45,974 nucleotides of DNA from Sulfurihydrogenibium sp. (GTDB taxonomy: Bacteria; Aquificota; Aquificia; Aquificales; Hydrogenothermaceae), in the NCBI RefSeq assembly GCF_027448985.1, contig NZ_DAIDMN010000003.1:1-45974 (forward strand), given 5' to 3'. This document shows, piece after piece, positions 24,413-43,861 of this stretch (position 1 is the first letter of the stretch; each line of letters starts with the position of its first letter). The position numbers were made by a program, and so were the translations under genes. Under the pieces are notes generated by a model. The model saw nothing but the letters and a program-made list of their open reading frames with translations, did no database searches and was not told the origin of the DNA.

Positions 24413-24485
24413 AAATTTTAGTTTTGGAAATTGAGGAATCCGGATGTAAATTATTATGGTTCAAAAAATCTGTAAGGGGTTAGAT

Positions 24486-27400
24486 ATGGGAAAGGATTTT
24501 GTTCATCTGCATTTGCATACTCATTACTCTCTGTTGGATGGTGCAATTAAGATAAAGGATTTGGCTAAAAAGGCTGTAGAGTATGGGTATAAAGCAGTTG
24601 GACTTACCGACCATGGAAACATTTTTGGGGCTGTTGAGTTTTATCAAGAGATGAAGAGTGTAGGTGTAAAACCTATCATAGGTATGGAAAGCTATTTTAC
24701 AAACAACAGGTTTGAGAAAAAAGGAGAAGGGTCGGACGATATTCTAACGGATAAAAATTACCATCTTATTTTGTTTGCAAAGGATAAAACCGGATTTAAA
24801 AATCTTATGAAGTTGTCTTCGTTGGCTTACACGGAAGGTTTTTACTACAAGCCGAGAATAGATTGGGAGCTTTTAGAGAAGTACCATGAAGGACTAATCT
24901 GCCAAACTGCTTGTCTGAAAGGCTTTATCCCTCATCTTCTTTCAAAAGGGAAATACGAAGAAGCTAAATTTTATGCTAAAAAGCTAAAAGATATTTTCGG
25001 AGAGGACCTTTATTTTGAAATACAGTTAAATGGTTTAGAAGAACAAGAGGAAGCTAATAAAGGAATTATAAAGCTTGCAAAAGAGCTTGGTGTCAAAGTA
25101 GTAGGAACCAACGATTCTCATTATCTAAATCCGGAAGACCAGCCGGCTCACGATGTTATAAAAGCTCTCCAGATGAAAGAGACTTTAAAAAGCCTTCAAG
25201 AAAAAGGGAAGGCGTTTAAGGTAAAAGGTCTTCACTTTACTTCTCCGGAAGAGATGTATGAAAAGTTCAAAGGTTATGAAGAATATTTAAAAAATACGAT
25301 GGAGATAGCGGAAAAGTGTAATGTTGAGATAGATACGGCTGATACAAGAGGTTATCTTTTTCCTAAGTATCAGATTCCGGATGTAGAAAATCCAACCGCT
25401 GAAGATGTTGCAAGATACTTTGAAAAGTTGGCAAAAGAAGGTTTAGAAAAGAGATTAGAAAAGATAAAGAATTTATCATCTGAAAAACTTCAAGAGTACA
25501 GAGAAAGACTTCAGTATGAGATTGATGTTATAAATAAAATGGGATTTGCCGAGTACTTCCTGATAGTGCAAGATTTTATCAATTATGCAAAAAACAAAGG
25601 TATACCTGTTGGTCCAGGTAGAGGTTCAGCTGGTGGTTCTTTGGTTGCCTACTGCTTAGGAATAACAGAGATAGACCCTCTTAAACATGGATTAATTTTT
25701 GAAAGGTTTTTAAATCCAGAAAGAATATCTATGCCGGATATTGACGTAGATTTTTGTATGGACAACAGGGAAAAAGTAATAGAGTATGTAAAAAACAAGT
25801 ACGGAGAAGACAGTGTCGCTCAGATTATCACCTTCAACTTTATGAAATCAAAAATGGTTATAAGAGATGTTGCAAGAGTCTTGGGATTTCCTTATCAAGA
25901 AGCTGACAAAATAGCAAAGATGATACTTCCTGGACCGGTTCAAGGTACAACCCTTACAATAGAAGAAAACCTTGAAGCCAATCCGGATTTTAAAAAGTTA
26001 TACGAAACGGACCCAAAGGTTAGGGAGCTTTTAGATTTAGCAAGAAAATTAGAAGGTTCTGCAAGACATACAGGTATCCATGCTGCAGGAATAGTTATAG
26101 CACCCGGACCTTTAGATGAGTATGTACCTGTTTACAGAGATAAAGATGGAAACAAAGCGACCCAGTTTGAGATGAAAACCTTAGAACAACTTGGTCTTGT
26201 AAAAATGGACTTTTTAGGTCTAAAAACTCTTACAGAGTTAGACTTAATGAAAAAATTGATAAAAGAAAGACATGGTGTAGATGTAAACTATCTTGATATA
26301 CCCCTTGACGATGAGAATGTTTTCAAACTTCTTCAATCCGGAAAAACAACCGGTGTGTTCCAACTTGAAAGTAAAGGAATGCAAGATTTATTGGTACGCT
26401 TAAAACCTACAGTGTTTGACGAAATCATCGCCATCTTGGCTTTATTTAGACCTGGACCACTGATGAGTGGAATGGTAGATGAGTACATAGAGAGGAAACA
26501 CGGAAGAAAACCTGTAGAATATCCTTTTGATGAGGTAAAGGAAATACTTAGTGAAACATATGGGCTATGTTTGACTGGAGATACTTTAATAACGTTAGCA
26601 AACGGAACTTTGATACCTATTAAAGAGATAGTTGAAAAAAATTTTGTGGGTGAAGAAGTTTTATCTCTTGATGTTAATACAAATAAAATAGTTAGAAGTA
26701 AAATTACTCACTGCTTTTACAATGGAATAAAAGATGTATACAAGATAACATTATCAAACGGTTTAGAGATAAAAGCTACAGCAGACCATAAATTTTTGAC
26801 TCCTTTTGGCTGGAAAGAGGTTAAAAATCTAAATCCGGAAAGAGATTTATTAGCAATACCTATCAATGGAGATATAGGATTTACCTCCATCAAATCTATT
26901 GAATATTTTGGAAAGGAACATGTTTATGATATTGAAGTTGAAAAAACTCACAACTTTATAGCCAATAATATTATTTCTCATAACTGTATATACCAGGAAC
27001 AGATAATGTTTATGTCAAACATTCTATCTGGTTTTTCGATGGCAGAAGCTGATACCCTTAGAAAAGCCATAGGAAAGAAAAATGCTGAAACTATGGCAAA
27101 GATGAAAAACAGATTTGTAGAAGGAGCTGTAGAAAGAGGATTCAGTAGAGAAAAAGTAGAAAAACTGTGGGAAGATATTGAAAAGTTTGCATCATACTCT
27201 TTCAACAAATCTCACTCAACAGCTTACGCTTACCTAACATACTGGACAGCATGGGTAAAAACTTATTACACCGACGAATTTTTTGCAGTAAAACTATCTA
27301 CCGAAGCAAATGATACAAAATTTTTAAACCTACTTTCAGATATGGAAAACTTTGGTATAAAACTTCTTCCACCGGATATCAACAAAAGTATGAAAGACTT

Positions 27401-28421
27401 TTATATAGAATCTCCTAAAAACATCCGATTTGGTCTTGCAAGAATAAAAAACGTTGGAGAATCTTCAGCACAAGAAATAGTAAAAGAAAGACGGGAGAGA
27501 GGAAACTACGTTGATATATACGATTTTTGTGAAAGGTTGGATACAAAGACGGCAAACAAGAGAGTTTTAGAAAGTCTTATAAAAGCCGGAGCCTTTGACT
27601 TTGAAAAAGTGGACAGAGCAGTTTTACTACATAATGTTGACAAAGCCATATCAACAGGACAAAAAGCCAGAGAAAGTAAAATAGTTGGACAAAACTCTCT
27701 ATTTGCCCTTACAACTACTCCTGTTGTCAACGTAAAACATATTTACGATGATACAGGTATAACAAAACTAACAGATAGAGAAAAATTAAAGTATGAAAAA
27801 GAAGTCCTTGGATTTTACCTTACAGGTCATCCTATAAATGCTTACAAGAAAGAACTTGGAAACAAAGTATCAAAAATAGGAGCTCTTTACGAAGATATTT
27901 TCGGAAGTAAAAGATTATCCGGTGATATAAAAGTAAAGTTAGCAGGTGTGGTAGATGAGATTAAAATGAAAAAAACAAAATCCGGAAATACGATGATGGT
28001 ATTTAACTTTTCAGACGAAACAGGTCAGATAGACTGTAGAGCATTTCCTGAAAAATTAGACAACAAAGAACTTTTAAAAGATGATAGTATAGTTGTATTA
28101 GAAGGCTTTATAGAAGTAGACGAAGAACAGGAGAAAATATCGATGAACGTGGTAGGAGTAGAACCGATAGAAAACTTTTTAAAAGATATAAAAGGAATAA
28201 AAATAAAAATACACAAAGAAAAGGCTATGAACGGATTACTTCCAAAACTCCAAAGGATTTTTGAAAAGTACAAAGGAGACAAAGAAGTAGTGTTGTACAT
28301 TTACGATAAAAACTTTGAATGTGAAATTCAGCTTCATTCAGACTTTCATGTGGATTTAAAAGACGAGTTTAAATATGAGATTTTTCAGCATATATCAGAA
28401 AAAGATGTTATTTTATTTTAA
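24486..28421 (+). CDS. dnaE: DNA polymerase III alpha subunit containing an in-frame intein
   Basis: MGKDFVHLHLHTHYSLLDGAIKIKDL (PHP); PDIDVDFCMDNREKVIEYV; KKMGKKNAETMAKMK region; OB-fold C-terminus. ORF track starts at 24456 but ATG 24486 matches the conserved start. Confidence 0.96.
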   Translation: MGKDFVHLHLHTHYSLLDGAIKIKDLAKKAVEYGYKAVGLTDHGNIFGAVEFYQEMKSVGVKPIIGMESYFTNNRFEKKGEGSDDILTDKNYHLILFAKDKTGFKNLMKLSSLAYTEGFYYKPRIDWELLEKYHEGLICQTACLKGFIPHLLSKGKYEEAKFYAKKLKDIFGEDLYFEIQLNGLEEQEEANKGIIKLAKELGVKVVGTNDSHYLNPEDQPAHDVIKALQMKETLKSLQEKGKAFKVKGLHFTSPEEMYEKFKGYEEYLKNTMEIAEKCNVEIDTADTRGYLFPKYQIPDVENPTAEDVARYFEKLAKEGLEKRLEKIKNLSSEKLQEYRERLQYEIDVINKMGFAEYFLIVQDFINYAKNKGIPVGPGRGSAGGSLVAYCLGITEIDPLKHGLIFERFLNPERISMPDIDVDFCMDNREKVIEYVKNKYGEDSVAQIITFNFMKSKMVIRDVARVLGFPYQEADKIAKMILPGPVQGTTLTIEENLEANPDFKKLYETDPKVRELLDLARKLEGSARHTGIHAAGIVIAPGPLDEYVPVYRDKDGNKATQFEMKTLEQLGLVKMDFLGLKTLTELDLMKKLIKERHGVDVNYLDIPLDDENVFKLLQSGKTTGVFQLESKGMQDLLVRLKPTVFDEIIAILALFRPGPLMSGMVDEYIERKHGRKPVEYPFDEVKEILSETYGLCLTGDTLITLANGTLIPIKEIVEKNFVGEEVLSLDVNTNKIVRSKITHCFYNGIKDVYKITLSNGLEIKATADHKFLTPFGWKEVKNLNPERDLLAIPINGDIGFTSIKSIEYFGKEHVYDIEVEKTHNFIANNIISHNCIYQEQIMFMSNILSGFSMAEADTLRKAIGKKNAETMAKMKNRFVEGAVERGFSREKVEKLWEDIEKFASYSFNKSHSTAYAYLTYWTAWVKTYYTDEFFAVKLSTEANDTKFLNLLSDMENFGIKLLPPDINKSMKDFYIESPKNIRFGLARIKNVGESSAQEIVKERRERGNYVDIYDFCERLDTKTANKRVLESLIKAGAFDFEKVDRAVLLHNVDKAISTGQKARESKIVGQNSLFALTTTPVVNVKHIYDDTGITKLTDREKLKYEKEVLGFYLTGHPINAYKKELGNKVSKIGALYEDIFGSKRLSGDIKVKLAGVVDEIKMKKTKSGNTMMVFNFSDETGQIDCRAFPEKLDNKELLKDDSIVVLEGFIEVDEEQEKISMNVVGVEPIENFLKDIKGIKIKIHKEKAMNGLLPKLQRIFEKYKGDKEVVLYIYDKNFECEIQLHSDFHVDLKDEFKYEIFQHISEKDVILF
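26568..26984 (+). other. Mini-intein coding segment (139 aa, no homing endonuclease)
   Basis: C1 block A CLTGDTLITLANGTLIPIKEIV; block B GLEIKATADHKFLTPFGWKEV; blocks F/G HVYDIEVEKTHNFIANNIISHN followed by Cys+1; removal restores SETYGL|CIYQEQIM. Confidence 0.95.
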
Positions 28422-35793: not shown

Positions 35794-35815
35794 GTACAAA
35801 GGAGGATAGAAACAG

Positions 35816-35844
35816 TTGACAAAAACTATACAAAATAATACATT
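35816..35844 (+). promoter_or_regulatory. Possible sigma70-type promoter upstream of the TnpB-related gene
   Basis: TTGACA - 17 nt - TACATT; weak -10 match, position only. Confidence 0.3.
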
Positions 35845-35919
35845 ATTAGACAGTGAGAATAGAAAGCTACTAAGTGTACAAAAACTAAACTGGAAAAGGT
35901 AAGAAAAGGAGACACTACC

Positions 35920-37545
35920 ATGATAACCCTTCAATGCCAACTGGAACTCTCCAACCAAGACAAGGAAATCCTATTATCTCTTATGCGTAAATTCTCCTCC
36001 TGTATGAGATATGCATACAACAGATTGTTAGAAGGTAATGATAGAAAAAACCTCAAAAAAGAATTACAAACTATATTTAGTATAAACTCAAGATATGTAG
36101 ATGATGCTATCCTAAAAGCCCAAAATGTTATAAACTTATGTAAAGAAACAAATCAAAACCCTAAAAAAGTTATATTCGGTGGTAGAAAGTTATTTAACAA
36201 GTTAAAGAAAAACCATCTCAATGGTAAAAGAAGACAAAAACTAAAAAAACAGTGGAAAGAAAAAAGATTATCTCTCTACTCAAGAGGAGATAAAACCAAG
36301 TCTGGAAATCTAAACCTAAGATTGATAAAAGAAAATGATAACTGGTATTTAAGAATAAACACAGGTAATAGACAATGGATAAAAGCCAATGTTATAAGAA
36401 ACGTTAAAAGACAGAAAGATAAATGGATAGACTTTATATTCAAACTTACAGAAGCGGAAATTACAGGTAACTATTTTCCATATTCCGTTGAGATAAACAT
36501 AAAACAAGGAAAATTTTATGCAAACATCAGTTATGAAGAAACCATACCAACTGTAAAGTACACAAAAGAAAAAGGTATAATAGGATTAGACATAAACGCT
36601 TCACCATTTCATATAGCTTTAGCAAACGTTAGCAAAGATGGAAATCTAATAGGTTATAAATCAATAAGCCTACATGAACTGATAGGTAAGAATAAAAACC
36701 AAAGAGAATACCTACTATGGCATATAGCCTATCAAGTTATAAACTATGCAAAAGAAAATGAAAAAGCTATAGCGGTAGAAAGACTAAAGAAAATACCAAA
36801 AGGTTATAGAGGAGATGGAAAAGGAAAGTTAAGAAAAATATTTCAGCAGTGGAGTTATAAATCACTACTAAACAAAATAAAAGTATTAGGACAAAGAAAC
36901 GGCATACAAGTAATTGAGATAAATCCAGCCTACACAAGCGTAATAGGAGCATACAAATACTGTCCACAACACAATATAGACAAAGACATAGCAGGAGCAT
37001 ATGTAATAGGAAGAAGAGGATTAGGATACAAAGACAAAATACCAAAGAACTACATAAAATTGTTAAACAGTAAAGAATACTTGCAATACTCAATTTTAAA
37101 GTTAGAGGAAAAGCAAGAAGAACTCAAAGGATATTTACAGGAAGAAAGAAACATCTATAAAACAAAGCCAATAAAACAAGAGATTAAAAGCATAGACAAA
37201 GATATTAAGTTGTTAAAAAACCTTAACAGCAATCCAAAGGCAGGGCAGCAGGTCAACCGATGGAAGGAACCTGTGAGAGAGGAGTATAAATACTCTTACA
37301 AACTTTGGAGAGTTGTTAAGGTAGCCCTTGGTATTCCTATTCTTGGTAAATCTTTTAATAGGGATTTATCTCTGCTAAGGACAATCTTAGTGGATTGGGA
37401 TAGGATATCAAGAAGGTTAGCTCCTGTGCTTGGTGCAGGGGCTATGGTTAGCCTAATACCGCCTGCAGACCCTCAGGCTAACCTGAAATGGCGGAATACA
37501 AATAGGTCTGCCTCAAGCTGTGTCAATTTTACACAGTTTGTGTAA
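35920..37545 (+). CDS. TnpB-related (IS200/IS605 OrfB-like) RuvC nuclease
   Basis: 541 aa; RuvC-I GIIGLDINASPFHIALANV, RuvC-II KAIAVERLKKIPKG, NPAYTSVIGAYKY, RuvC-III DKDIAGAYVIGRRGLGYKDKIP; no CxxC...CxxC zinc ribbon. Confidence 0.85.
   Translation: MITLQCQLELSNQDKEILLSLMRKFSSCMRYAYNRLLEGNDRKNLKKELQTIFSINSRYVDDAILKAQNVINLCKETNQNPKKVIFGGRKLFNKLKKNHLNGKRRQKLKKQWKEKRLSLYSRGDKTKSGNLNLRLIKENDNWYLRINTGNRQWIKANVIRNVKRQKDKWIDFIFKLTEAEITGNYFPYSVEINIKQGKFYANISYEETIPTVKYTKEKGIIGLDINASPFHIALANVSKDGNLIGYKSISLHELIGKNKNQREYLLWHIAYQVINYAKENEKAIAVERLKKIPKGYRGDGKGKLRKIFQQWSYKSLLNKIKVLGQRNGIQVIEINPAYTSVIGAYKYCPQHNIDKDIAGAYVIGRRGLGYKDKIPKNYIKLLNSKEYLQYSILKLEEKQEELKGYLQEERNIYKTKPIKQEIKSIDKDIKLLKNLNSNPKAGQQVNRWKEPVREEYKYSYKLWRVVKVALGIPILGKSFNRDLSLLRTILVDWDRISRRLAPVLGAGAMVSLIPPADPQANLKWRNTNRSASSCVNFTQFV
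37375..37545 (+). ncRNA. Candidate omega/reRNA-like structured RNA overlapping the 3' end of the TnpB-related ORF
   Basis: Dense inverted repeats: 37419-37429/37433-37443 (11 bp with G-U pairs), 37446-37454/37475-37483 (9/9), 37459-37463/37490-37494 (5/5), 37465-37471/37505-37511 (7/7), 37518-37523/37531-37536 (6/6). Confidence 0.6.
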
Positions 37546-37554
37546 CCAGGTTTT

Positions 37555-39138
37555 ATGAATAGTGTAGTATTCTTAATTCCTTTTATACCTTTAGTTATAG
37601 CTTTGCTTATTCTTTTTATAGACTACAAAAAGGTTATTCCAAAAATAAGTATATTCTTTTCTTTACTTATAGCCGGGTTGAGTATATACGGTACATTTCA
37701 GCAATTTAAATACAACACTCCAATAATATCGGAAAATAAACTTTTAAGTTTCGATAGATTATCTTCAATACTTACTTTGTACGTTGCTATTTTAGGAATA
37801 ATAATTAGAAAGTACTCTTACAAATACATGTGGGATGAACCTGGCTACAAAAGATTTTTTATTTTACTTAACTTTATATTTAGTTCGATTTACTTTTTAT
37901 TGATGGCAAATCACATATTGATTATAATGTTAGCATGGATAGGTTTAAGCTTGTCTTTGTTTTACCTTTTATCTTTTCGCTCTGACTCAAAATCAGCGGT
38001 ATATTTTGGAAGTTTGGCTTTTTGGTTCCATAGGTTAGGTGATTTATTTTTTATAATTTCGATGGTATTGATTGTTAGAAGGATGGATAATCTGTATTTG
38101 TCAGATTTGAAAAATCTTTGGCTTTCTTCCATTAACTTAGACTTAGAATTAGCTGCCATTTTTCTCGTTTTAGCAGCAATGTGTAAATCATCGATAATAC
38201 CGTTTCATTTTTGGTTACCATACACTTCAGAAGGTCCAACACCTGTTTCTGCATTAATGCACGCAGGTATTGTAAACGTAGGAGGAATAATTTTAAACAA
38301 ATTTGCCTATCTATTTTTACATACAGAATACGCCTTAAATATAGCATTTATTTTTGGTCTTATTACCGCAATTTTAGCATCTATGATAATGTTAACTATT
38401 CCAGATGTTAAAAGAGCTTTAGGATACTCAACCGTTGGTCAAATGGGATATATGATTATGGAAGTAGGTGTAGGAGCATTTAGCTTGGCTATATATCACC
38501 TTATGGTACACGGTATTTTTAAAGCTACGTTATTTTTAGAATCCGGAAACGTTATTCATCAAGCAAGAAAAGAACCTAACATCACTAAATCATTTTCTTA
38601 CAAAGTCTTTTTAGAAGAAGAAAGAAAATTTAACAAAAATTTTCAATTTTTAATAGGAGTAGTTGTTTTAGCTTTAGTTTTACTTACAGTTATAGAATTC
38701 CTATCTAAAAAAGATTTATCAAATTATTATGCAGCTTTGGTATTTTTAGCTTTTGGATGGCTTACAAGTTTTCAACTCTTCAACTCATTTTTTAAAGTTT
38801 CTAAAGAACAATCCTTAGGAATCTTAATATCGTTGGTAGCTTCGTTTACATTAATAGTTATAATATACTCCTTCATAGGTTTAGCTTTTGAAAATTATCT
38901 ATATGGAGAAAACTACAAAAAACTTTTTGAAGCAGCCAACTTATCTTTTGGACTTGTTTCTGTTGCAATTTTATTTTTAATCCTGACAGCTGTTGTAATG
39001 TGGGCTTTATCTTACTATTCCAATTATGGAGAAAATGGAAAAACTAATCTAAAAAATAAAGTAATTCTTGTTTACCGCATTTTGTATGAAGAACTTTACT
39101 TAAGAAAACTATTTTTATCCTTGTTTAAGATGAGATAA
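37555..39138 (+). CDS. dabB: DabB-like proton-conducting membrane protein (NuoL/MrpA-type)
   Basis: LPYTSEGPTPVSALMHAGIVNVGGIILNKFAYLF; KRALGYSTVGQMGYMIMEVG; operonic with DabA. Confidence 0.85.
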   Translation: MNSVVFLIPFIPLVIALLILFIDYKKVIPKISIFFSLLIAGLSIYGTFQQFKYNTPIISENKLLSFDRLSSILTLYVAILGIIIRKYSYKYMWDEPGYKRFFILLNFIFSSIYFLLMANHILIIMLAWIGLSLSLFYLLSFRSDSKSAVYFGSLAFWFHRLGDLFFIISMVLIVRRMDNLYLSDLKNLWLSSINLDLELAAIFLVLAAMCKSSIIPFHFWLPYTSEGPTPVSALMHAGIVNVGGIILNKFAYLFLHTEYALNIAFIFGLITAILASMIMLTIPDVKRALGYSTVGQMGYMIMEVGVGAFSLAIYHLMVHGIFKATLFLESGNVIHQARKEPNITKSFSYKVFLEEERKFNKNFQFLIGVVVLALVLLTVIEFLSKKDLSNYYAALVFLAFGWLTSFQLFNSFFKVSKEQSLGILISLVASFTLIVIIYSFIGLAFENYLYGENYKKLFEAANLSFGLVSVAILFLILTAVVMWALSYYSNYGENGKTNLKNKVILVYRILYEELYLRKLFLSLFKMR

Positions 39139-39156
39139 AAAAATGAGGAGTTGTAA

Positions 39157-39720
39157 ATGGAGATTATGTATATACTCTATGGATTACTGTTGATTGTATC
39201 TACCATTTTGTCTCTAAAAATTGTTAAACTATATCAAATTTTTGTACTACATTTTGTAATAAACTTTTTAGCAGTTTTACTACTTCAATCCCATAAAGAT
39301 TTGTATGGATTAGGTCTAATATCCACATACATAACTTTTTTTGTTAGCATTAAATTTCTAAAAGATAAATACAATGTAGATACAATTTATAGTATAGAAG
39401 GTTTAGTTCATAAAATTCCGTTATTTTCCTTTATATTCAGAGGTGTTACTTTAATGTTAGGTTTATTTCCACCTTTCCTACACTCTAACATAGTTTACTT
39501 AAACTTACTTACATCTAAAAATAACGTTGTAGTTTTGGATTTAATACTTTTGCTATTATTTGATTTTATCGTATTCATGAGGTTAACTAACAACATAATA
39601 TTTGGAAAACCTAACGATAAAATCGTATATATAGATATTTCAAAGTTTTATAGTTTTTTCTTGATACTACTGCTAATTTTAAATATCTCTTTGGGAGTTT
39701 ACATTTTACTTAACATTTAA
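39157..39720 (+). CDS. Small multi-TM membrane protein of the dab operon
   Basis: 187 aa, hydrophobic throughout; FRGVTLMLGLFPPFLHSNI; position between dabB and sbtA. Confidence 0.6.
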   Translation: MEIMYILYGLLLIVSTILSLKIVKLYQIFVLHFVINFLAVLLLQSHKDLYGLGLISTYITFFVSIKFLKDKYNVDTIYSIEGLVHKIPLFSFIFRGVTLMLGLFPPFLHSNIVYLNLLTSKNNVVVLDLILLLLFDFIVFMRLTNNIIFGKPNDKIVYIDISKFYSFFLILLLILNISLGVYILLNI

Positions 39721-39739
39721 ATAAAGGAGGTTTAAATTT

Positions 39740-40714
39740 ATGAGTGTAGATTTACTACTTCAAAATGTACTTAATCCACCAATACTGTTTTTCTTCTTAG
39801 GTGTTCTTTCCGTATTTTTAAGGACAGGTCTTGATATTCCTCAACCTCTACCAAAGTTTTTTTCATTGTACCTTCTAATAGCAATAGGATTACACGGTGG
39901 ATATGAACTTGCGAAGAGTGGTATAGATTCATACGTTTTGAAAGTCTTACTTCTTGCTATGTTGATGGCTATTTTGGTGCCTATATACGCCTTCTTCATA
40001 CTTAGAATCAAATTGGATGTTTTTAACGCAGTTGCGATTGCAGCTACCTATGGTTCTATAAGTGCTGTAACCTTTATAACTGCTTCAAACTTTTTACAGT
40101 CTTTGGGAGAAAACTATGGTGGTTATATGGTTGCTGCCATGACTTTAATGGAATCTCCGGCGATTGTAATAGGTTTAATTTTACTAAGTTTATTTGCGAA
40201 AAGAGAAGAAAATGAAAAATTAGAATGGAGAGAAGTTATCAGAGAGTCATTCTTTAACCCTTCCGTGTACCTTTTGATAGGTGCTTTAATGATAGGATTC
40301 ATCACAGGTGAGAAAGGATGGAAAGTTGTAGACCCTCTTTTTGGTCAGTTGTTCAAACCTATGTTGGCATTTTTCTTACTTGATATGGGTATAGTGGCTG
40401 CAAGAAGGTTAGGAGATTTGAAAAAGGTTGGATGGTTTTTAATAGCGTTTGCTGTTTTCATACCTATTTTAAACGCTGTCGTTGCGATTTTGATAGGTAG
40501 TTTTGTAGGTATGAGTAAAGGAGATGCTTTTATGTTTGCGGTTTTATGTGCAAGTGCTTCCTACATAGCTGTTCCAGCTGCTATGAGGTTGTCAGTTCCT
40601 GAAGCAAACCCAAGTATCTATGTTACAATGGCTTTAGCGGTAACATTTCCATTTAACATATCTGTAGGTTTACCTTTTTATTATTGGTTATTAAACTACA
40701 TTTGGGGGGTATAA
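39740..40714 (+). CDS. sbtA: Sodium-dependent bicarbonate transporter SbtA family
   Basis: 324 aa; NPPILFFFLGVLSVFLRTGLDIPQPLPKFFSLYLLIAIGLHGGYELAKSG; ASASYIAVPAAMRLSVPEANPSIYV. Confidence 0.93.
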   Translation: MSVDLLLQNVLNPPILFFFLGVLSVFLRTGLDIPQPLPKFFSLYLLIAIGLHGGYELAKSGIDSYVLKVLLLAMLMAILVPIYAFFILRIKLDVFNAVAIAATYGSISAVTFITASNFLQSLGENYGGYMVAAMTLMESPAIVIGLILLSLFAKREENEKLEWREVIRESFFNPSVYLLIGALMIGFITGEKGWKVVDPLFGQLFKPMLAFFLLDMGIVAARRLGDLKKVGWFLIAFAVFIPILNAVVAILIGSFVGMSKGDAFMFAVLCASASYIAVPAAMRLSVPEANPSIYVTMALAVTFPFNISVGLPFYYWLLNYIWGV

Positions 40715-40716
40715 CC

Positions 40717-41010
40717 ATGAAAAAGATGAAAAAAATCGAAGTAGTAATCGACACTCTACACATTGAACATCTAACCAACCTTCTGGATAAAAAAGGGTTT
40801 TCAGGGTATACGATAATAAAAGACGTTTATGGAAAAGGAGAAAGAGGATTTATGTCAGGAGATGAGCTTACAGATGTTTTTAAAAACAGTTATCTTTTTA
40901 CAGTATGCGAAGAAGAGAAAATTAAAGAAGTTATTGAAGACTTAAGAAAACTTTTAAAAAAGTATGGAGGAGTTTGCTTAATTTCAGATGTTGAGTGGTT
41001 GATTCATTAA
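40717..41010 (+). CDS. PII-like signalling protein (SbtB/DAB-associated type)
   Basis: Start corrected to ATG 40717; KIEVVIDTLHIEHLTNLLDKKGFSGYTIIKDVYGKGERGFMSGDELTDVFKNSYLFTVCEEEKI. Confidence 0.75.
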   Translation: MKKMKKIEVVIDTLHIEHLTNLLDKKGFSGYTIIKDVYGKGERGFMSGDELTDVFKNSYLFTVCEEEKIKEVIEDLRKLLKKYGGVCLISDVEWLIH

Positions 41011-41029
41011 AAATATAGATGGAGGAAAA

Positions 41030-43861
41030 ATGAAAACCGCTGTACTCAAAGAAGCTTCAGAATTCTTACCTAAATACTGGCCATTAACAATGTTTGTTTA
41101 TCACAACCCTTTACACGAATTTGAAAACATGCACTTTAAAGAAGCTTTAAAAGTAGCTCAGGATTTATTTGATGCTAAAGTTTACATGCCATTTTCTTAC
41201 TATGTAGACCTTTATAGAGAAGGAAAAGTGAGGAAAGATATCCTTCAGCAAAATATAGATGCTTTCCTTAACAAAAACAATCTACAGATTAGTAAGTACA
41301 AAGTAAGAAAACTTATGGTAGATATAATGCCTACGTGGGACGAATTCAAGGAAAACAGTTATAGAGAAACAACACAGACACCACCAAAAGATTTGAAAGA
41401 AAAAATAACAGCTGACAAAGGATTTTCAGATTTAGATAATCTATTAGAAAGATACATACATAAATACACTTTTAGCCAGATTTTAGATGTAGTATTAGAC
41501 CAAAATATATATGAAATATTTTATAATGATGCTATCGAGTTTGTTTCAAGGTTCTTAGATGAAGGTCAAACAAACTTACCACTTCCTTTTAGGGACTTAG
41601 GATACTGGAACTGCTTTACCTTACACTACAATGTAGATAAATCTATGGAAGAAATTTTGGAAGATTTTGAAAAAACAATAAATCCCCCTGATTTTAAGAA
41701 ATATGCCATGAGAATGTACATAAACTTTTTTGGTTGGAGTAGCTTTATAAAATTTAGAGAATCAAATCCATTTTACCCTTATCAAGAAGAATACCCTATA
41801 TCATTAGAAGAATTTGGTGCAAGCCTTTTTTACATTGAAAAATTCTATCTTGAAAAGTTAAACAAGTCTAATATCAAAAATTATTTTGATTTTATAGATT
41901 TTTATAAAAAAAATAAGGAGTTTGTTATTTTAAAAATACTAAAGGATAAAAACATCCTTTCTCCAGAGTTTAAATCTAAGTTACTGACTTCTAAAGATTA
42001 CGCCTCAACATTAAACCAATTTATAGAAAAGGAGGTAGAAAAAGAAGCAAAAGCTGTTATTAACTTATCTAAAAATCTTTTTGAAGATGAAGATTACCTA
42101 AAGATTTACGATTTAGTGAAAAAAATAAAAGAAGAGGAAGGATACATCTGGATAAAATCTTTAGAAGAATCTTATGCATTTTCGTATGGTAAAGAATTTT
42201 TAAAAGTTTATGAAATAGAAGAAAATCCAAAGGCTTTTGCAGTATTTTGTGTAGATGTAAGGTCAGAAGCTTTTAGAAGAAACTTAGAAAGAATAGATAA
42301 CTATAAAACTTTTGGAGTAGCCGGATTTTTTGGAATAAAAATGGCCTTGATAGAGTTCGATAAATCTCATGAACTTCTTTTATGTCCTGCAATGGAAGTT
42401 CCAGAACGAGTAATTTTAGAAATCCCTCAACAAAAAACAGGAGAGTACGAAAAGAGAAAAAACATCATCTCATCTCTAAAGAAAACTTTAGATAAACTAA
42501 AGAACAATCCTTATACACCATTTTTTACCGTTGAGTCTTTTGGTTGGTTGTTTGGTTATAATCTTTTTGGTAAAACATTGTTTCCAAAACTCTTATCAAA
42601 AGTAAATCAAAAAATAAAACCTCTTCCTCCAAAGACATCTTACTTTTTAGAGAAACTATCGGCTGATGAAATAGAAAAATACACTGATAGATTCATCATG
42701 GAAAAAATAGCATCAGCTTTTGAGAAAGAAAAGATAAAATTTAGTGAAGATGACCTGAAAAAGGTGCTGGAAAGTATAAAAAACAACTTCCAAATTCAAG
42801 AAAAATACAGTAAAGTTCTTCAAAAATATAAAATAAACAAAGATTACTATGATTTAATTTATAAAAAGTTTTCAGAAGTAGGTTTTACCTTAGAAGAACA
42901 AGCAAAGTTAGCTGATAACTTCTTGTCTTTGATAGGTATGGTTGATGGTTTTCCAGAATTTGTACTACTTGTAGGTCATGGCAGTGAGTCGGATAACAAC
43001 CCTTACGAATCCGCTTTGGATTGTGGAGCCTGTGGAGGTAATTCCGGATACCACAACGTAAGAGCTATGTGTTCTATTTTAAATAAAAAAGAAGTAAGAG
43101 AGTTGATGAAGATAAAAATTCCAGAAGAAACAGTTTTTATTCCGGCTTCTCATAACACGACAACAGATGAGGTAGAATTTTATGATGAAACGATTCCCAA
43201 AGGTAAAGAAAAAAAATGGCAGGAAATAAAAAATGACTTTTACAAAGCATCTAAAAAAACAAGAATAGAAAGATTATCCATACTACCGTATGCTGATACA
43301 GAAGATGATATTGTAGTAAGAGCGATAGATTGGTCTGAAATGAGACCTGAATGGGGTTTATCAAAAAATGTTGGTGTGTTTGTAGGTAAGAGAGAAACCT
43401 CTATGAATTCGGTATTAAGTAACAGATTTTTCATGCATTCTTACGATTACAGATTGGACCCAGATAACACTATCCTAAAAAGAATACTCAATGGTCCGTT
43501 TTTGATAGCTCAATGGATTAACGCTGAATACTATTTTTCAACGGTAGACAATGAAAAATTTGGCTCTGGTTCAAAAGTTTACCATAACGTCGTATCAAGG
43601 TTAGGAGTTTTCAGTGGGAACTATTCTGACTTAAGATTGGGATTACCTTATCAAACTGTGTATTACGAAGATAAACCTTTTCATGAACCTATAAGGCTTG
43701 TAGTATTTGTTGAAGCACCTTTGGAAAAAGTGATAGCTGCAGCTTCTGAAACAGAGCATCCTATGACCTTATTAAAAAATGAGTGGGTAAGATTAGTAGT
43801 AATTGATAGAGAAAAAAATAAGTTATTTTTACTTTCGGATGGTAATTTTGTAGAATTGTGA
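41030..43861 (+). CDS. dabA: DabA (DUF2309) inorganic carbon transporter subunit
   Basis: 943 aa; YWPLTMFVYHNPLHEFENMHFKEAL, FCVDVRSEAFRRNLE, GHGSESDNNPYESALDCGACGGNSGYHNVRAM zinc-binding beta-CA-like motifs. Confidence 0.95.
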   Translation: MKTAVLKEASEFLPKYWPLTMFVYHNPLHEFENMHFKEALKVAQDLFDAKVYMPFSYYVDLYREGKVRKDILQQNIDAFLNKNNLQISKYKVRKLMVDIMPTWDEFKENSYRETTQTPPKDLKEKITADKGFSDLDNLLERYIHKYTFSQILDVVLDQNIYEIFYNDAIEFVSRFLDEGQTNLPLPFRDLGYWNCFTLHYNVDKSMEEILEDFEKTINPPDFKKYAMRMYINFFGWSSFIKFRESNPFYPYQEEYPISLEEFGASLFYIEKFYLEKLNKSNIKNYFDFIDFYKKNKEFVILKILKDKNILSPEFKSKLLTSKDYASTLNQFIEKEVEKEAKAVINLSKNLFEDEDYLKIYDLVKKIKEEEGYIWIKSLEESYAFSYGKEFLKVYEIEENPKAFAVFCVDVRSEAFRRNLERIDNYKTFGVAGFFGIKMALIEFDKSHELLLCPAMEVPERVILEIPQQKTGEYEKRKNIISSLKKTLDKLKNNPYTPFFTVESFGWLFGYNLFGKTLFPKLLSKVNQKIKPLPPKTSYFLEKLSADEIEKYTDRFIMEKIASAFEKEKIKFSEDDLKKVLESIKNNFQIQEKYSKVLQKYKINKDYYDLIYKKFSEVGFTLEEQAKLADNFLSLIGMVDGFPEFVLLVGHGSESDNNPYESALDCGACGGNSGYHNVRAMCSILNKKEVRELMKIKIPEETVFIPASHNTTTDEVEFYDETIPKGKEKKWQEIKNDFYKASKKTRIERLSILPYADTEDDIVVRAIDWSEMRPEWGLSKNVGVFVGKRETSMNSVLSNRFFMHSYDYRLDPDNTILKRILNGPFLIAQWINAEYYFSTVDNEKFGSGSKVYHNVVSRLGVFSGNYSDLRLGLPYQTVYYEDKPFHEPIRLVVFVEAPLEKVIAAASETEHPMTLLKNEWVRLVVIDREKNKLFLLSDGNFVEL

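Follow-up and report, generated by a model that had tools for sequence, protein, structure and literature searches.

What do the interlocking inverted repeats at the 3' end of a TnpB-related gene specify: a stretch of protein, a DNA hairpin, the leader of the next gene, or an RNA that guides the protein itself? The question is raised by a stretch of 45,974 nucleotides from Sulfurihydrogenibium sp. (Aquificota; Hydrogenothermaceae; positions 1 to 45,974 of contig NZ_DAIDMN010000003.1, assembly GCF_027448985.1), hereinafter the window, in which an open reading frame (ORF) for a TnpB-related protein closes with a segment dense in such repeats. An earlier note, made from the letters alone, had taken this segment for a probable embedded guide-RNA scaffold. 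Covariation and the position of the RNA support that idea, and we regard it as highly probable that the segment is the 3' module of an omegaRNA (the guide-RNA scaffold of TnpB) of about 310 nt, carried by a TnpB-only element of the IS605 type; its binding by TnpB and its use of a 3' guide are what we infer from these observations.

The structured RNA and what is conserved in it

Every inverted-repeat arm listed in the note is present where it had been placed, including AGCTCCTGTGC/GTGCAGGGGCT (37419-37429/37433-37443) and CTGTGT/ACACAG (37518-37523/37531-37536), the latter extending into the 10-pair stem of hairpin E (Table 1). These arms exceed chance both in folding and in covariation. The minimum free energy of the segment has z = -2.92, with 2 of 200 shuffles folding as well. 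Across 29 distinct homologous element ends, scored over stems A, P1, a, b and E (37 pairs, 1069 pair cells), 98.3% of the cells hold standard pairs and 17 of the 37 pairs are changed on both sides. Covariation scores 0.386, compared with 0.175 when shuffled, none of 500 shuffles being as high, and slid controls stay at or below 0.100. The covariance analysis that the note had suggested thus returns strong covariation, the crossing helices included. Helix a is invariant across the 29 ends, and in other genera its CCGCC/GGCGG is replaced by GCGCC/GGCGC. Since the arms follow one another in the order P1-a-b-P1'-a'-b', the three helices all cross one another, within a core of about 66 nt. Of the two options offered by the note, pseudoknots or alternative folds, the former is upheld by the covariation of the crossing helices, and alternative folds alone do not suffice. 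Moreover, G-U cells number 66 and A-C cells 7, which argues that the RNA of the + strand, rather than a DNA hairpin, is the functional molecule.

While the repeats hold, the extent first given to the structure, 125 nt within the ORF, does not: the RNA spans about 310 nt (37242-37550) and its 3' end lies five bases beyond the ORF stop codon. In its 5' domain 18 of 37 pairs show compensatory changes, with a covariation score of 0.446 against 0.208 when shuffled (0 of 500 as high). The 3'-terminal CCAGG (37546-37550) can pair with the CTTGG loop of stem A, a pairing to be expected immediately 5' of a TnpB guide, and the loop/terminus combinations found are CTTGG/CCAGG (25 cases), CCTGG/CCAGG (12) and CTTGG/CCAAG (1), counts that leave out nine further matches that had been wrongly assigned to hairpin E. 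Length expansions affect hairpins at L035, L050 (genome G037) and L010 (genome G034): ACGTTTCACG-like units are repeated within the hairpin E loop, and a stem of 50 nt is inserted 5' of stem A.

In the 3' module, it is the RNA and not the protein that is conserved. Among 15 homologue pairs, the ORF body shows substitutions of 9.7/6.6/23.0% at the three codon positions and the 5' RNA domain 10.3/7.4/13.4%. In the 3' module, with 6.5/6.9/9.2%, the bias is gone, and out-of-frame alignment columns are confined to it. The position of the stop codon varies among TnpB homologues, the protein of the Thermovorax homologue terminates upstream of the module, and short elements without an intact ORF retain the RNA. 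An AlphaFold model of the window protein gives residues 437-541 a pLDDT (predicted local distance difference test) below 50. Two further remarks of the note are borne out, namely that the segment is GC-rich against an AT-rich ORF (0.47-0.51 versus about 0.30 in the ORF body) and that its translation does not resemble conserved protein; protein-level conservation, the alternative cause that it had named, does not account for the 3' module.

The element, its insertion site and the predicted guide

Both boundaries of the element come from the comparison of related copies. On the right, similarity among five near-identical copies in genome G034 stops abruptly past ...ACCAGG, which places the end at CCAGG (37550 in the window); on the left the element starts at 35806, and AGGAGG or GGAGG precedes most of the legible left ends in related copies. 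The window reads AAAGGAGG-element-TTTTATG, and uninterrupted orthologues of its downstream gene read AAAGAGGTTGTATATG in G034 and AAAGAGGTAAATATATG in G014. Of 98 distinct copies, 74 have a start codon 2-14 nt past the element end, compared with 232 of 1960 positions taken at random (12%; Fisher 3e-44), counting ORFs of at least 60 aa, or at least 40 aa when running off the stretch; for ATG alone the figures are 63 of 98 and 102 of 1960. The list of 98 contains some leader-type and chance matches, and among true elements the share is probably higher. With right ends shortly before start codons and left ends following AGGAGG, insertion is mostly directly 3' of an AGGAGG-like Shine-Dalgarno sequence and directly 5' of the start codon. 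Genes entered by other copies include leuC (L031) and rplU (L052), as well as rpsM and rpsN, which were recognised by their N-termini, read by eye. Among the fragments, several represent short elements in which the left end and the final ~300 nt persist but no intact ORF does. Behind the element in the window lies a cluster resembling inorganic-carbon uptake (37555-43861, +), with an antiporter-like subunit, an Sbt_1 Na+-dependent bicarbonate transporter, a P-II-like protein and DabA, the first gene of which is cut off from its Shine-Dalgarno sequence by the element.

The encoded protein matches TIGR01765 (4.4e-21) and TIGR01766 (5.8e-18) above their cut-offs and NF040570 (2e-16, 60.3 bits) under the cut-off of 100. 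The RuvC residues D224, E287 and D356, invariant among the homologues aligned, are intact in it, the third acidic residue sitting in a KD[ITV]A motif. The AlphaFold model finds its best fold match in the PDB in AsCas12f (1.6e-8), along with Cas12k and Cas12g and, more weakly, Fanzor2. In its N-terminal domain, RuvC motif and Cas12f-like fold the protein is akin to TIGR01766/NF040570 proteins and to the TnpB clades with a rearranged RuvC-III. It departs from these in falling under the NF040570 cut-off, in the KD[ITV]A setting of the third acidic residue, in a long C-terminal extension and in that no zinc finger was seen between the RuvC motifs, where neither this protein nor the homologues compared have CxxC pairs; this last point tells only against calling it a typical TnpB. 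Homologues are present in 20 of the 41 genomes of the window's bacterial family, often in multiple copies and with many fragments of the C-terminal part only, and the protein is found in 45 of 136 Aquificota genomes. TldR proteins, which are TnpB-like RNA-guided transcription factors (PMC13418256), are likewise related to TnpB and act with guide RNAs close to where genes begin. Membership among them was rejected: the RuvC site of the window protein is not degraded, its acidic residues being intact, and its guide would be expected in the flank of the element itself.

TnpB guides already characterised extend over the 3' end of tnpB and finish with about 16 nt of the right flank (PMC8612924); omegaRNAs range from 79 to 466 nt in length, and a 3' hairpin usually stands no more than 10 nt from where the scaffold ends (PMC10278001). 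The RNA of the window is like the omegaRNA, or reRNA (right-end element RNA), of ISDra2 and other IS200/IS605 and IS607 elements in overlapping the tnpB 3' end and the right end, in its many hairpins, in a 3' hairpin within 10 nt of its end, in having the right flank as expected guide and in a length within that range. It differs in its three mutually crossing helices, in matching no Rfam family, in sharing its core with gene leaders and in the motif beside the left end of the element, AGGAGG, a Shine-Dalgarno sequence, whereas characterised target-adjacent motifs (TAMs) are mostly AT-rich, a few being G-rich (PMC10278001).

Accepting the omegaRNA assignment, TnpB would bind and process the ~310-nt RNA, the guide would be the flank from 37551 onward, with the downstream start codon in it, AGGAGG would act as TAM, and cleavage at the empty site may help to retain the element. 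Lodged between Shine-Dalgarno sequence and start codon, the element also provides, with its 3' end, the final portion of the entered gene's 5' leader, where CCAGG(T) near the start codon replaces the displaced Shine-Dalgarno sequence; as copies precede genes such as leuC, rplU and rpsM, such a leader must permit translation. The HEARO/IscB omegaRNA is likewise a transposon-borne structured guide RNA with a fixed insertion context, a likeness by description only, with a different protein family.

Several observations weigh against the omegaRNA assignment. Rfam gave no match for the window at the gathering threshold or for the segment at E <= 1. Confidence in the AlphaFold model is low (mean pLDDT 61.9). 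The core is found without TnpB in many genomes, so that guiding TnpB cannot be its sole role. Finally, no Y1 transposase TnpA with matching ends adjoins the copies examined; TnpB-only elements are known. A linked Y1 transposase was rejected, as the PF01797 loci in the window's bacterial family carry other, non-matching ends. The literature covered, which is partial, yielded nothing on TnpB with Shine-Dalgarno sequences or in Sulfurihydrogenibium.

Table 1. Positions in the window of the RNA, its helices, the element and the flanking signals
Feature	Position	Strand	Basis
Structured RNA, 5' domain (overlaps the ORF)	37242..37413	+	covariation; kept in short non-autonomous elements
Structured RNA, 3' module (match to model R1)	37414..37550	+	covariation, model matches
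Stem A, 37419-37426 with 37436-37443; loop CTTGG 37429-37433	37419..37443	+	covariation
Helix P1, 37446-37454 with 37475-37483 (GGTTAGCCT/AGGCTAACC)	37446..37483	+	compensatory changes in 8 of 9 pairs
Helix a, pseudoknot CCGCC/GGCGG, 37459-37463 with 37490-37494	37459..37494	+	pair change in other genera
Helix b, pseudoknot GCAGACC/GGTCTGC, 37465-37471 with 37505-37511	37465..37511	+	compensatory changes in 6 of 7 pairs, 100% paired
3' hairpin E, 37514-37523 with 37531-37540	37514..37540	+	covariation
TnpB-only IS605-type element, 1745 bp	35806..37550	+	both boundaries from comparison of related copies
AGGAGG, Shine-Dalgarno sequence of the downstream gene before insertion; putative TAM/target site	35800..35805	+	left-end comparison, uninterrupted orthologue
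Expected guide region, host flank with start codon ATG (37555-37557) of the downstream gene	37551..37570	+	predicted from known TnpB guides
TnpB-related ORF, 541 aa	35920..37545	+	profile matches, RuvC motifs, fold match

The same core in stand-alone leaders

Two models, R1 of the 3' module and R2 of the core alone, both with rough E-values, have matches in 78 and 82 of the 136 Aquificota genomes, respectively. The matches beyond elements are 5' leaders, laid out in the order core, hairpin, Shine-Dalgarno sequence, start codon. The genes behind them include rpoA, the ATP-grasp subunit of ATP-citrate synthase, htpX, hsp20, acpP, hpf, rho, infC and ribH, all checked by Pfam, and further ones, such as ftsH, named by eye. 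The window's own genome holds such leaders before rpoA (G000:C29:10491-10607, -; L126) and the ATP-citrate synthase subunit gene (G000:C54:3419-3512, +; L127). Orthologous genes at which leaders recur are htpX (11 species, A5), hsp20 and acpP (one genus), rpoA (three species of the window's genus) and a NapA-like gene (several genera of the window's bacterial family). Compensatory changes affect 10 of 27 pairs in the htpX leaders of the 11 species (0 of 500 shuffles), and identity is 0.79 in the core against 0.37 in the upstream flank. Outside Aquificota, the motif is of the element type in Fervidicola, Thermovorax and Tepidanaerobacteraceae and of the leader type in Thermodesulfobacteria, Thermodesulfovibrio and others, in a scan that includes at least two apparent chance matches (L265, L316); viral contigs gave no motif match.

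Several leader-bearing genomes lack TnpB: no TIGR01766 protein occurs in G058 (18 leaders), G098 (3 leaders), G015 or G016. The 1.5-Mb genome G091 has 35 leaders and five TIGR01766 proteins, none of them of the window's TnpB family at E <= 1e-20; its 66-nt cores (L195-L223) differ at 0-3 positions and stand before unrelated genes, with both flanks unrelated. In G092-G097, of the same genus as G091, TnpB homologues of the window family are present in up to 11 copies with no R1 or R2 match, so that their omegaRNA must differ. P1 is gone from L127 and from the leaders L397 and L395, which have only helices a and b, and thus the a/b pseudoknot with its A-rich linker emerges as the minimal conserved unit.

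A compact pseudoknot just 5' of the Shine-Dalgarno sequence is also a feature of the H-type pseudoknot riboswitches (preQ1, SAM-II, SAM/SAH). The stand-alone leaders are like them in this respect but precede dozens of unrelated genes, with no Rfam match and no ligand known. Among the leader loci tested no Rfam family matches the RNA, and a known Rfam RNA was rejected, the sole weak matches, FuFi-1 (E 0.78) and NiCo (E 9.3), lying far under the cut-offs. The single survey of Aquificales non-coding RNAs that we found reports only sporadic known riboswitches (PMC4227106), an earlier description of the leaders elsewhere being possible.

Proposed guide scaffold, possible regulatory leader and their origins

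We consider it probable, with less assurance than for the omegaRNA assignment, that TnpB guide RNAs have the ~66-nt knotted core in common with a family of 5' leaders, missing from RNA catalogues, before many housekeeping and stress genes of Aquificota and other thermophiles. On this account, RNA-guided transposons that target Shine-Dalgarno sequences would have brought in a regulatory leader or acquired one, and the core would spread alone in some genomes.

On where the leaders come from, the chances appear to us evenly split. The stand-alone leaders could be remnants of TnpB elements that lost all but the core and were retained by their hosts as regulatory RNAs, in several independent domestications. 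The insertion point, which turns the element 3' end into a leader, agrees with such descent, as do intermediate forms (L102, L103, L196, L207) that retain element-type hairpins and CCAGG-like ends; Shine-Dalgarno-like words 5' of P1 are weakly enriched in the G091 leaders (11 of 30 versus 29 of 177, p = 0.02), which we do not count as proof of origin. However, the near-identical cores of G091 before unrelated genes and flanks point to spread of the core itself, the leaders reduced to helices a and b also speak against such descent, and the direction could be reversed, with the leader taken up by the transposon.

A more doubtful proposition is that the P1/a/b core acts mainly in cis, as a 5'-leader RNA that controls translation or stability and keeps the entered gene expressed, and is not, or not chiefly, a guide scaffold. 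It would suit the occurrence of the core 5' of host start codons without TnpB, as in G058 and G098, the preservation of the fold in the htpX leaders by compensatory changes, with a core far better conserved than the 5' flank, and the adjoining of most element ends to a start codon. Against this, the 5' domain, stem A and the loop/terminus pairing are specific to elements, lie at the exact position of an omegaRNA scaffold and are absent from the leaders. The guide-scaffold and leader roles are not mutually exclusive.

That the repeats are instead DNA hairpins, subterminal palindromes recognised by a transposase, is very improbable. IS200/IS605 right ends do have a subterminal hairpin, a position that hairpin E suits (PMC10278001), but G-U pairs on a single strand and the crossing helices lead us to reject a DNA hairpin alone, and the 310 nt of covariation and the presence in gene leaders also speak against it; hairpin E by itself may still have a part in DNA recognition. 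Ordinary coding sequence with chance repeats, which the ORF, open throughout the segment, might have suggested, is refuted by covariation and flat codon-position rates, in addition to the out-of-frame columns, variable stops and non-coding copies, and retains a negligible probability.

Covariation supports the omegaRNA family so delineated, whose core is unusual. The site that it targets is in its own right a signal of gene expression, and this accounts for the tolerance of insertions before genes such as leuC, rplU or rpsM. The family links TnpB guide RNAs to a widespread family of leader RNAs that is absent from Rfam and conserved at orthologous genes, and it makes directly testable whether the guide RNAs of mobile nucleases become, or derive from, cis-regulatory RNAs of their hosts. 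In practical terms, too, the G-rich TAMs of thermostable nucleases may prove useful. Elsewhere in the window, the DNA polymerase III alpha gene (24456-28421, +) carries an intein, with an Intein_splicing domain from residue 712 and no obvious homing endonuclease.
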